Shown here piece by piece: positions 47,886 to 51,518 of a stretch of 64,000 nucleotides of DNA (within the stretch, counting starts at the first letter, position 1; every line of letters begins with the position of its first letter). The stretch lies in contig NZ_JAOWIF010000028.1 in assembly GCF_030332225.1 (NCBI RefSeq), positions 558,001 to 622,000 on the forward strand. The letters run 5' to 3'. Under the pieces are notes generated by a model. That model was not told the DNA's origin. It was given only the letters and a program-made list of their open reading frames with translations, and did no database searches. The DNA is from Citrobacter sp. Cu233. GTDB taxonomy: Bacteria; Pseudomonadota; Gammaproteobacteria; Enterobacterales; Enterobacteriaceae. A program made the position numbers and the translations under genes.

Positions 47886-49292
47886 TTAGAAGATGGTGAA
47901 CGGAGCAATAACGATGAATTTCACGTCACGCTCATCCTGGAAGATGTTACCGTAACCACCGCCCCAGCTCGGAATATCTGAATGGTTGTCGTACTGGGTG
48001 AAGTGCAGTTTAAACATAGTGCCCTTCGCACGGCCGTCCTGCAGGGTATAGACCGCATCCAGGCTGTAAGACGACTCTTCGATAGTACGATTTTTGTCGT
48101 AGTACGCATCCGGGTTGAGCTGCCAGGTAGCCGGTTTAGCATCCCACGCGTAAACGTAGGATGCACCCACAGCCCAGCCTGGCAGGTTCCAGTTCTTCAG
48201 GTCATACATCGCGCCGAAGAACACGGCCTTTTCACCATTGGCGTTGAAGTCAGAGCGGTTATCCCACCAAACGTCCAGACGACCGTTTGAAGACGCATAG
48301 GTCGGAGTCATACGCTGCAGGAAGTAGCCCTGCTGCCCGTCAGCTTTAACCCAGGTCCCTTCCAGTCGCAGATCAACGACTTCTGCCACTTTGTAGCCGA
48401 AGGTCAGTGCCTGCAGCCAGGCCGTGCCATCATAAATGTCGTTAACCGTGCGGTCATCAACCTTATCGCGGGCACCGTAGAACTGGTAGCTGGTTGTAAA
48501 TGGGTTACCGCCTAGATCAAATTTGTAGCTGGCTTTGGCGAAATACTGATCGACGTAGCCTTCAGACTGACCGAATGCTGCCTCCAGCAACAGGTTATTT
48601 TTGAAGTCATACTTTGCGCCGATTGAATGGAGGTAATCAACTTTGGTCTTTTTATCGGCTTGATAGAATTTATCGACTTCGGTGTGCCACGGAGCTTTAT
48701 ATTCGTTGGCCCACATATAGGAGAAGCTCAGCGCACCCGCATCGCCATAATCGAAGTTGGCACCGGCTTCAGCACCCTGATAGGTACCAGGCATAAAGCT
48801 CCAGTGTGGTGCCAGCAGAGTTTGCCCGGTTGGTTGAATATAACCGGCGCGCGCCCAGGTCGGGCCAAATTTAAATTTAGCTGCCGCTTTATACAGGCTA
48901 ATCCCGCTCTTATCGCCGGAGTAATCTTCGTCATAGCCTTTATTTTTTGAAGAGAATGCGATTTCGTTTGGATGGCCGCTTTCGCTACTTTCATTCATTT
49001 CAATAGCGGTAAATGCTGCGACATCAATACCAAACATATCCGCCACGTAACCGGACTGGAAGTCGAGGTTTGCGTTCCAGGTGGAGTGAGAAAGGTTAGT
49101 CTTGTATTTGTCATGATCGGTCACATCTTTACGGTCACGCTCACGCTGCCAGTAATAAATGCCACCAGTTAAAGTAGAGTCATCAATAAAACCTTCGGCG
49201 TGAACCTGGGGAGCGACAACAAAACCCGACATTGCTGTGATACCGGCGATAGCCAGCGCCAGCGTACTACGTTTGCCACTAAACGTACGCAT
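47886..49292 (-). CDS. chiP: Chitoporin ChiP
   Basis: Outer-membrane OprD-family porin for chitobiose and other chitooligosaccharides. The 468 residues (same as E. coli) have a signal peptide cut after QVHA (residue 32), beta-barrel strands alternating aromatic residues, and a terminal Phe (VIAPFTIF). Control is through NagC and through the small RNA ChiX, which pairs at the ribosome-binding site; a matching site is present at 49301-49312. An ERIC element sits just upstream of that site in the leader. Confidence 0.96.
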
Positions 49293-49300
49293 ATGTTAAT

Positions 49301-49312
49301 CCTCTTTGACGT
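49301..49312 (-). promoter_or_regulatory. ChiX-pairing site/ribosome-binding site of chiP
   Basis: On the minus strand ACGTCAAAGAGG is complementary to the ChiX seed CCUCUUUGACG as I remember it, and includes the AGAGGA ribosome-binding site of chiP. The ERIC element begins immediately upstream. Confidence 0.6.
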
Positions 49313-49440
49313 ATAACCCTTCGTCTTTCAAGCCGCATCTGCGTTGGCTTTCCTCGCTCATCCCAGTCACGTACTGATGTACGCTCCCGGGAATTCACTG
49401 CGTCGCCGCCTTGATGCAACTCGAAATTCATTGGGTATAA
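49311..49440. repeat. Full-length ERIC element in the chiP leader
   Basis: Starts TATAACCC and ends GGGTATA, with CGTCTTTCAAG, CTCGCTCATCCCAGTCACGTAC and TGTACGCTCCCGGGAATTCACT inside, the standard ERIC landmarks. It lies 18 bases upstream of the chiP start codon, in the untranslated leader. Confidence 0.85.
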
Positions 49441-49523
49441 AATGCTGCCGATAAAAGCGGTCAGCGAAAAAGCAAAAATAAAAAAGTAGCGCTGAGAAAA
49501 CCTCATTGACTACAATGAATAGA

Positions 49524-49545
49524 CTATTTTTCGCGACGCGAATTA
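49524..49545. promoter_or_regulatory. NagC operator upstream of chiP
   Basis: CTATTTTTCGCGACGCGAAT continuing to ATT forms a near-palindrome around TCGCGACGCGA, very close to the NagC consensus (A/T-rich arms flanking CGCGNCGCG). NagC represses chiP in E. coli, so this ties chitoporin to N-acetylglucosamine availability. Confidence 0.75.
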
Positions 49546-49801
49546 TCAATCTCTTTTTGTAACCAGTATGTAAGAACATGAGCAACCGCACATATTTCAT
49601 TGCTTTCTGTTACATTTTCATTGGAAGATAAAAAAGCGTTGAAGAATTGAAAAAAGGCTTGTTTTCCATAAAGATGAAATCGGTTTCAGTCCAGAGTGGC
49701 TGATAACGCAAGGTTTTTTTAGAAAAATATAAACGGCAAAAATCATTCCTGAATAACAATTATTTCGCTGCGCAAATAGAGTCTGCTAACCGTTTTCAGG
49801 C

Positions 49802-49829
49802 GAAAAAAACGCCGCAGAGTGCGGCGCTT
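49802..49829 (-). terminator. glnS terminator
   Basis: AAGCGCCGCACTCTGCGGCGTTTTTTT on the minus strand is a classical hairpin with a T-run, 22 bases after the glnS stop. Confidence 0.88.
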
Positions 49830-49850
49830 GAAAGGATGCGTAACGACGGT

Positions 49851-51518
49851 TTATTCGCCTACTTTAGCCCATGTATCGCGCAGACCCACGGTGCGGTTAA
49901 ACACCAGTTTGTCAGCTGTTGCATAGCGGCTGTCGAGGCAGAAGTACCCTTCACGCTCGAACTGGAACGCTTTACCAGCAACCGCAGCCTGTAGCGAAGG
50001 CTCCCCATAGCCCTGTTTAATCACCAGCGATTCCGGGTTAATGACGGACAGGAAGTCTTCCGCCGCGCCAGGGTTTGGTACGCTGAACAGACGATCGTAC
50101 AGACGGATTTCAATCGGCAGCGCATGAGCCGCACTTACCCAATGAATAACGCCTTTTACTTTACGTCCATCGGCCGGATCTTTGCTCAGGGTATCGGCAT
50201 CGTAGGTGCAGAAAATGGTGGTGATATTACCTTCCGCATCTTTCTCTACGCGCTCGGCTTTAACAACATAAGCATTACGCAGACGGACTTCTTTGCCCAT
50301 TACCAGACGCTTGTACTGCTTGTTGGCTTCTTCGCGGAAGTCAGCCCTGTCAATCCAGATTTCACCACTGAACGGCACTTCACGGCTGCCCATTTCCGGC
50401 TTGCTCGGATGGTTAGGCATCGTTACCAGTTCGCTTTCGCCCTGCGGATAGTTTTCGATAACCAGTTTCACCGGTTCGATAACGGCCATCGCGCGCGGTG
50501 CATTTTCGTTCAGATCTTCACGGATGCAGGATTCCAGAGAAGCTATTTCAATGGTGTTATCCTGTTTGGTCACACCAATGCGTTTGCAGAATTCACGAAT
50601 CGCAGCAGCCGTGTAACCACGACGGCGCAGACCCGAGATAGTCGGCATACGCGGGTCGTCCCAGCCTTCAACGTGCTTGTCGGTCACCAGCAGGTTCAGC
50701 TTACGCTTGGACATCACGGTGTATTCCAGATTCAGGCGCGAGAATTCGTACTGACGCGGATGAACAGGAATGGTGATGTTGTCCAGCACCCAGTCGTACA
50801 GACGACGGTTATCCTGGAATTCCAGCGTACACAGTGAATGTGTGATGCCTTCCAGCGCATCGCTGATGCAGTGGGTGAAATCGTACATCGGATAGATGCA
50901 CCACTTGTTGCCAGTCTGATGGTGTTCAGCAAACTTAATGCGGTACAGCACCGGGTCACGCATCACGATAAACGGCGAAGCCATATCGATTTTCGCACGC
51001 AGGCAGGCTTTACCCTCTTCAAAACCACCGGTACGCATTTTTTCAAACAGCGCGAGGTTCTCTTCAACGCTGCGATCGCGGAACGGGCTATTTTTACCAG
51101 GCTGAGTCAGCGTGCCACGGTATTCACGGATTTCGTCAGCAGACAGTTCGTCGACATACGCCAGACCTTTGTTAATAAGTTCTACCGCGTAAGCATGTAG
51201 CTGATCGAAGTAATCCGACGAGTAGCGAATGTCGCCAGTCCAGTGGAAACCTAACCATTCAACGTCATTTTTAATCGATTCAACGTACTCGATATCTTCT
51301 TTAACCGGGTTCGTATCATCAAAACGCAGGTTGCACTGGCCCTGGTAATCTTGCGCAATACCAAAGTTCAGACAAATGGATTTCGCGTGGCCAATGTGCA
51401 GATAGCCATTTGGCTCCGGCGGAAAACGGGTATGGATAGTGGTGTGCTTACCACTGGCCAGATCTTCATCGATGATCTGACGAATAAAGTTACTCGGGCG
51501 GGCTTCAGCCTCACTCAT
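49851..51518 (-). CDS. glnS: Glutaminyl-tRNA synthetase
   Basis: Charges tRNA-Gln with glutamine. It has 555 residues, one more than E. coli GlnS. The class I HIGH signature is [15 protein letters not shown] and the KMSKS-like loop is [11 protein letters not shown]. The C-terminal beta-barrel anticodon-binding domain continues from about residue 340. Four tRNA-Gln genes are in the same window at 60651-61164. The gene is divergent from no neighbour and has its own terminator. Confidence 0.98.

Follow-up and report, generated by a model that had tools for sequence, protein, structure and literature searches.

The chiP leader and the ERIC element within it

The chitoporin gene chiP (ybfM) lies on the minus strand of the window, that is, the whole stretch of 64,000 nucleotides of Citrobacter sp. 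Cu233 DNA that was analysed. Identical ChiP proteins (100%) are encoded by Citrobacter sp. wls619 and C. youngae CCUG 30791. The E. coli counterpart is annotated chiP and is found downstream of glnS; the same order is observed here, with a glnS-like frame at 49851-51518. The 5' leader of chiP measures 221 nt in this genome versus 98 nt in E. coli K-12 (XL1-Blue record). Read on the minus strand from upstream, the region comprises successively a putative promoter, a 5' hairpin, a U-rich tract, a second hairpin, the bases ATTT, an ERIC element, the pairing site of the small RNA ChiX, the spacer TTAACAT and the ATG. The features are as follows.

49521-49549, minus strand: putative promoter TTGATA-N17-TAGTCT, from the sequence
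49530-49542, minus strand: NagC-type palindrome TTCGCGTCGCGAA between the promoter hexamers, from the sequence; NagC binding putative
49486-49513, minus strand: 5' terminal leader hairpin, predicted by the minimum free energy fold, absent from the consensus fold; putative transcription start at 49513 from the E. coli alignment
49466-49485, minus strand: U-rich tract, candidate Hfq rim site of a class II mRNA, from the sequence
49444-49465, minus strand: hairpin 2 (GCTGaCCG..CGGCAGC), directly 5' of the ERIC, predicted by the minimum free energy fold
49312-49439, minus strand: full-length ERIC, TATACCC...GGGTTATA, abutting the ChiX site, from the genome search, the profile and the empty sites
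49300-49311, minus strand: ChiX pairing site CGTCAAAGAGGA, 12 nt, an exact ChiX complement overlapping the Shine-Dalgarno sequence (AGAGGA, 49300-49305)
49296-49370, minus strand: GTG open frame of 24 codons starting inside the ERIC and running through the ChiX site, a lead only, its translation hypothetical
47886-49292, minus strand: chiP (ybfM), chitoporin of 468 aa, open reading frame with its ATG at 49292

The original prediction that a full-length ERIC begins at the end of the ChiX-complementary ribosome-binding segment is confirmed, the element occupying 49312-49439 and the site 49300-49311. The span first proposed for it, 49293-49440, combines the ribosome-binding site, the ChiX site and the ERIC, and the pairing segment falls outside the ERIC proper. 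By direct reading, the plus strand at 49290-49319 is catatgttaa tcctctttga cgtataaccc, which gives on the minus strand the end of the ERIC (GGGTTATA), the ChiX site (CGTCAAAGAGGA), the spacer (TTAACAT) and the chiP start (ATG). The element is 128 nt long, from TATACCC (49439) to TTATA (49312), with both termini present; the 3' terminus GGGTTATA carries one T more than the GGGTATA of other copies, the ERIC norm being about 127 bp bounded by TATACCC and GGGTATA. A search of the same genome, in which 40 of 48 first-look candidates were scored, returned 30 ERIC matches at E <= 1e-3, the chiP copy included and two of them being pieces of one place; the best other copy is 91% identical over 124 nt. 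The chiP element scores E 1.7e-38 (nhmmer) against a profile HMM made from the remaining copies of this genome (29, with two pieces of one place counted twice, here as in the folding controls below), so that the match is not due to chance.

The insertion point is defined by the empty sites of relatives, which read CAGCATTTTATA followed, across the point of insertion, by CGTC. Comparison of the empty TTTATACG with the filled TTTATACCC...GGGTTATACG reveals an insertion with a TA duplication, for which TA and TATA are indistinguishable; in a longer view, CAGCATTTTATACGTC in the relatives corresponds to CAGCATTTTATACCC...GGGTTATACGTC here. The gene of ChiX itself was found once in this genome, outside the window (Rfam sroB, 89.9 bits), and it holds TCCTCTTTGACG, the exact complement of the site over 12/12 nt.

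An ERIC close to a start codon is ordinary in this genome, because at least nine other copies (L003, L007, L008, L011, L020, L024, L025, L026 and L029) are found no more than about 45 nt from the probable start of an open frame with 236 codons or more, the distances being based on starts picked by Shine-Dalgarno match and on extrapolated ERIC ends. The genes beside these nine are presumably surA, dnaG, a cystine-binding protein gene, ilvC, nfo, dapE, proX, recO and gppA. Uniqueness of such a position was accordingly rejected, and what distinguishes the chiP element is its contact with a known sRNA site. The literature search found no ERIC in a chiP leader or at an sRNA site among the matches listed, mostly open-access papers, which is weak evidence of novelty.

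Probable transcription of the element

According to the original prediction, the element belongs to the chiP mRNA, an idea that would fail if the ERIC lay upstream of the transcription start. It is found downstream of the start deduced by alignment. The E. coli chiP RNA used for annealing in vitro is described as beginning with GUAGUCAGCGAG (PMC5606850), and the G aligned with this first nucleotide lies at 49513. In E. coli, the chiP leader is also reported to yield ChiZ, an RNA of about 90 nt that sponges ChiX and whose Rho-dependent 3' end comes right after the pairing sequence (PMC7815308). This length agrees with a start at the aligned G, a ChiZ of about 90 nt fitting the 98-nt E. coli leader, but the poor -10 hexamer, TAGTCT, and a consensus scan that failed to report the promoter count against it. 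As judged from the sequence, the ERIC is very probably inside the 221-nt leader, thus transcribed with chiP, and inside the counterpart of ChiZ.

The putative promoter and TTCGCGTCGCGAA are conserved in 27 aligned leaders, with a single base change, TTCGCATCGCGAA, in two Salmonella rows. This palindrome is a candidate NagC site. The claim that a NagC operator stands upstream of the ERIC in the leader region is borne out as far as a NagC-type palindrome is present there, its binding by NagC being putative. The attribution to NagC is supported by a review that mentions repression of chiP by NagC.

Two further roles for the element were considered. A consensus scan for promoters and terminators on both strands of 49250-49860 reported nothing, the putative native promoter included; the ERIC was rejected as a new promoter or terminator on this weak evidence, the scan missing the native promoter too. 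Its RNA is G-rich (C 0.21, G 0.32) and not C-rich, and an added Rho site was rejected by this composition.

The element also brings open frames into the leader. The GTG frame of 24 codons ends 3 nt before the chiP ATG and is present in the five translated leaders with a full freundii-group copy; its counterpart is shorter in C. amalonaticus and absent from C. braakii and from a genome of the C. sedlakii group (G227). A longer frame from the ATG at 49431 terminates 14 nt within chiP on the minus strand. The ATG starts of the longer ERIC-borne frames have weak or no Shine-Dalgarno matches, the better matches being buried in the hairpin. In the G227 leader (L044), the internal deletion of the ERIC leaves an upstream ATG in frame with ChiP, giving an N-terminal extension that crosses the ChiX site; it is probably unused, as the extension would precede the signal peptide.

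Occurrence in relatives and conservation of the ChiX site

A survey of ERIC in other Citrobacter showed that chiP is present in all 17 genomes of the genus and that the element occupies this exact point in 7 of them, the other 10 being empty. The filled genomes are the present one, G301 (wls619), G168 (C. gillenii), G023, G297, G295 and G296 (C. braakii). The copies of G301, G168, G023, G297 and G295 are 96-98% identical to that of Cu233, and the C. braakii element has a different interior. Two more cases occur outside the genus group, in G061 (C. amalonaticus S646) and in G227 (group of C. sedlakii), the latter with a large internal deletion. The total thus amounts to nine filled genomes and four element forms. 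Among 153 leader sequences, 13 match the ERIC profile, from these nine genomes (the named and unnamed sets overlap), and every match is at the same point. These 153 leaders derive from 168 chiP loci tried; the 15 loci without a usable TCAAAGAGG motif were left out, namely four second ChiP-like genes of genus genomes, five unnamed loci and six named ones (Kosakonia or Leclercia). Of 125 genomes of the family in which ChiP was matched, 70 contributed leaders, the other 55 being mostly more distant. The aligned E. coli and Salmonella leaders have an empty site, and a 211-nt query spanning the ERIC junctions found no place with 80% coverage in any of 5,426 E. coli genomes.

The 12-nt ChiX site is unchanged in 8/8 distinct filled leaders, representing the nine genomes and all four element forms. 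GTCAAAGAGGA is likewise invariant in 25 aligned empty-site leaders, which were preselected for TCAAAGAGG. At the insertion point, TGTC replaces CGTC in six empty genus leaders (youngae CCUG 30791, On2M, werkmanii, youngae ATCC 29220, FP75 and G302). Five empty genus leaders (L120, L122, L123, L125 and L127) have CATTTTTATGTC where others have CATTTTATACGTC, a variant that might be the scar of an element loss or a plain mutation. In five Kosakonia leaders (L165, L178, L188, L194 and L195), the site CGTCAAAGAGGA is replaced by CGTCTAGAAGGA, CGTCCAGAAGGA or CGTCAATAAGGA. The Rfam ChiX model found no match in these five genomes among the top 150 first-look candidates of each; with the same number of candidates, it matched in 2/2 Citrobacter and in 9/9 genomes of other genera. 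ChiX and its chiP site seem to have been lost together in Kosakonia. The leader of a Leclercia MAG (L187, 1441-1503) has a site with one change, CGTCAATGAGGA, yet ChiX was found in the same genome. A scan of eight genomes with the ChiX seed pattern, allowing two mismatches, was uninformative, its 58 to 89 matches per strand being at the level of the reversed control.

Predicted folding and its interpretation

The folding predictions describe the thermodynamics of naked RNA, free of Hfq, ribosomes and co-transcriptional folding. In the predicted ensemble, 0.63 of the ERIC bases pair inside the element and 0.002 (0.2%) outside. The closing CCC-GGG pairs have a probability of 0.97-0.98 at the border of the ChiX site, as expected from the proposal that the long hairpin ends next to the pairing site, and the outer UAUA pairs reach 0.29-0.59. 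The closing pairs are as firmly predicted (0.97-0.99) in seven of eight filled leaders; those of C. amalonaticus reach 0.47-0.64, and its element appears less closed, with 6.7% of bases pairing outside. As for the leader common to filled and empty sites, RNAalifold on 25 empty-site leaders produced nine pairs (six in hairpin 2 and three in the ChiX-site region) at -1.21 kcal/mol. Two-sided changes occur at four of these nine pairs in the 25 sequences, all in hairpin 2, and this covariation lends weak support to that structure. The 5' hairpin received no support from this 25-leader consensus, the alignment being gapped at its 5' end.

It had also been suggested that the hairpin could change how ChiX or the ribosome reach the leader. 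The predictions give no support to this idea: opening the ChiX site would cost 1.73 kcal/mol both with and without the ERIC, opening the ribosome-binding site (-18 to +6) 4.66 kcal/mol with it versus 4.97 without, and co-folding with the ChiX of this genome yields -18.8 kcal/mol with it and -19.5 without, in a range of -16.6 to -19.8 for other leaders. The effect on ChiX pairing is consequently predicted to be small; effects could still arise through Hfq geometry, RNase E cleavage or ChiZ length. Controls were obtained by replacing the insert. In 200 dinucleotide shuffles, the mean cost of the ChiX site is 2.79 (sd 0.98), 10.5% being as low as the real one, and that of the ribosome-binding site 6.36 (sd 1.36), with 6.5% as low. 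The reversed chiP ERIC gives 3.17 for the ChiX site, and the 29 other copies of this genome placed in the leader give 3.87 (sd 1.74) in the same orientation and 3.14 (sd 1.26) when reversed. Natural leaders range from 1.94 to 3.51 for the seven other filled ones (3.51 in G295 and C. gillenii) and from 1.89 to 4.89 for 13 empty ones. The real insert would thus stand at the mild end of the controls and not be significantly special, the shuffle mean being only about 1 kcal/mol worse.

The most probable explanation, to which we give a probability of roughly 0.6, is that the ERIC at chiP is a tolerated insertion forming a self-closed hairpin, with ChiX control retained, and not a new switch or kind of regulator. 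A mobile ERIC would have inserted at a TATA directly preceding the ChiX site in the chiP leader, and would have been kept since it is tolerated. Transcribed with chiP, it would fold as a closed hairpin domain with its base at the pairing site, which would not alter the accessibility of the ChiX site, the Shine-Dalgarno sequence or the start codon. The U-rich, probably Hfq rim-binding, tract would be 124 nt farther from the pairing site in sequence and brought near again by the closed hairpin. The other main consequence would be a ChiZ of about 215 nt versus about 90 nt in E. coli. Several points weigh against this explanation: the predicted neutrality is that of naked RNA, with shuffles nearly as mild; the opening cost is higher in other filled relatives such as G295 and C. 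gillenii, and the C. amalonaticus element is less closed; transcribed ERICs are reported to affect mRNA stability; and the use of one point by several forms could mean selection rather than tolerance.

The first alternative concerns RNA stability. The 3' repeat of the ERIC, whose AU-rich end (GGGUUAUA) adjoins the ChiX site, could bring an RNase E site to the border of the pairing site, the leader then being cut, ChiZ short or absent, and the ChiX-ChiZ-chiP loop altered. In Yersinia, ERICs inserted at gene 3' ends are reported to unmask an RNase E site (PMC10969869), and ERICs to be co-transcribed with a crucial influence of orientation (PMC2229807); reviews likewise describe an orientation-dependent destabilisation of upstream RNA by transcribed Yersinia ERICs, which they attribute to an RNase E site within the 3' repeat. 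This effect, however, is reported for ERICs at gene 3' ends, where ribosomes unmask the site, and no translated gene is known to enter the ERIC from upstream here. We regard such cleavage as unlikely.

Alternatively, the ERIC could weaken ChiX control by parting the Hfq-binding U-rich tract from the pairing site. ChiX and chiP are described as a class II pair, in which the mRNA partner uses the Hfq rim, and the tract has indeed been moved by 124 nt in sequence; but the closed hairpin is predicted to rejoin tract and site, and the site is intact in all the distinct filled leaders, as opposed to its changes in the five Kosakonia leaders, whose genomes gave no ChiX match. A weakened control of this kind appears improbable.

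The history of the insertion bears on a possible selection. Mapped onto the chiP gene tree, the filled state takes four changes, three of them forced by well supported branches, and it was thus gained, lost or exchanged within the group. A tree of 67 element copies, whose supported branches force two changes, places the freundii-group chiP copies with that of C. braakii, on weak support, and sets the C. amalonaticus chiP copy apart from them, together with another ERIC of C. amalonaticus. Copies from the freundii group, C. braakii and G227 make up one side of a weakly supported branch (70/55) in a comparison that omitted the C. amalonaticus copy. The latter is 70% identical to the chiP copy of Cu233 and at best 73-75% to ERICs elsewhere. 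A second, separate insertion in C. amalonaticus is likely, even if holding its copy together with those of the freundii group is not rejected (AU p = 0.1). Over its whole length, the C. braakii element is 75-76% identical to the chiP copies, and its interior shows 87-89% identity to elements at other places of G307, G023 and G168. Some ERICs elsewhere come nearly as close to the chiP copy of Cu233 as its counterparts at 96-98%, with 90% over 123 nt in G061 and 93% over 106 nt in G307. A target preference may suffice to account for the repeated use of the point, because no other TATA occurs within the last 430 nt in three of the four empty leaders counted, the fourth having its one TATA elsewhere. 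In this check of target preference, both termini were recovered by strict pattern in only four ERICs of the genome, the chiP copy included.

One may speculate that mobile hairpins were recruited more than once at one dinucleotide flush with the sRNA seed, as a spacer or stacking platform tuning the ChiX-ChiZ-chiP circuit between close Citrobacter, but we hold this to be highly improbable. Least probable of all is that the ERIC was selected as an insulating or tuning hairpin, acquired repeatedly and for instance stacking on the ChiX duplex: the identical point in nine genomes with four element forms and the separate grouping of the C. amalonaticus copy are in its favor, but a single origin is not rejected, the scarcity of TATA may suffice, 10 of the 17 genus genomes have no element, and the insert is not significantly milder than its shuffles.

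Whatever its origin, the insertion offers a natural experiment, as this well studied sRNA target exists in filled and empty alleles among close relatives. These alleles allow the test of a large hairpin beside an sRNA site and of a more than doubled ChiZ length. Unchanged ChiX control would show that a self-closed insert separating U-rich tract and pairing site is tolerated by an Hfq-dependent leader; a change would mean that a mobile element has rewired an sRNA circuit.

The element resembles the known enterobacterial ERIC (IRU, RU-1) sequences in its length of 128 nt, its TATACCC/GGGTTATA termini, its terminal TA, its long predicted hairpin and its approximately 30 related genomic places, and it differs from them in that it touches an sRNA pairing site within a leader. 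Like the transcribed Yersinia ERICs with a reported effect on mRNA stability (De Gregorio et al. 2005), it would be within a transcript; those elements are described at the 3' end of translated genes, whereas the chiP ERIC is in a 5' leader. Compared with the ChiX-chiP (ybfM) and ChiZ system of E. coli and Salmonella, the promoter, the NagC-type palindrome, the U-rich tract, hairpin 2 and the ChiX site are all conserved, but a 124-nt insert parts hairpin 2 from the ChiX site and would lengthen ChiZ accordingly.
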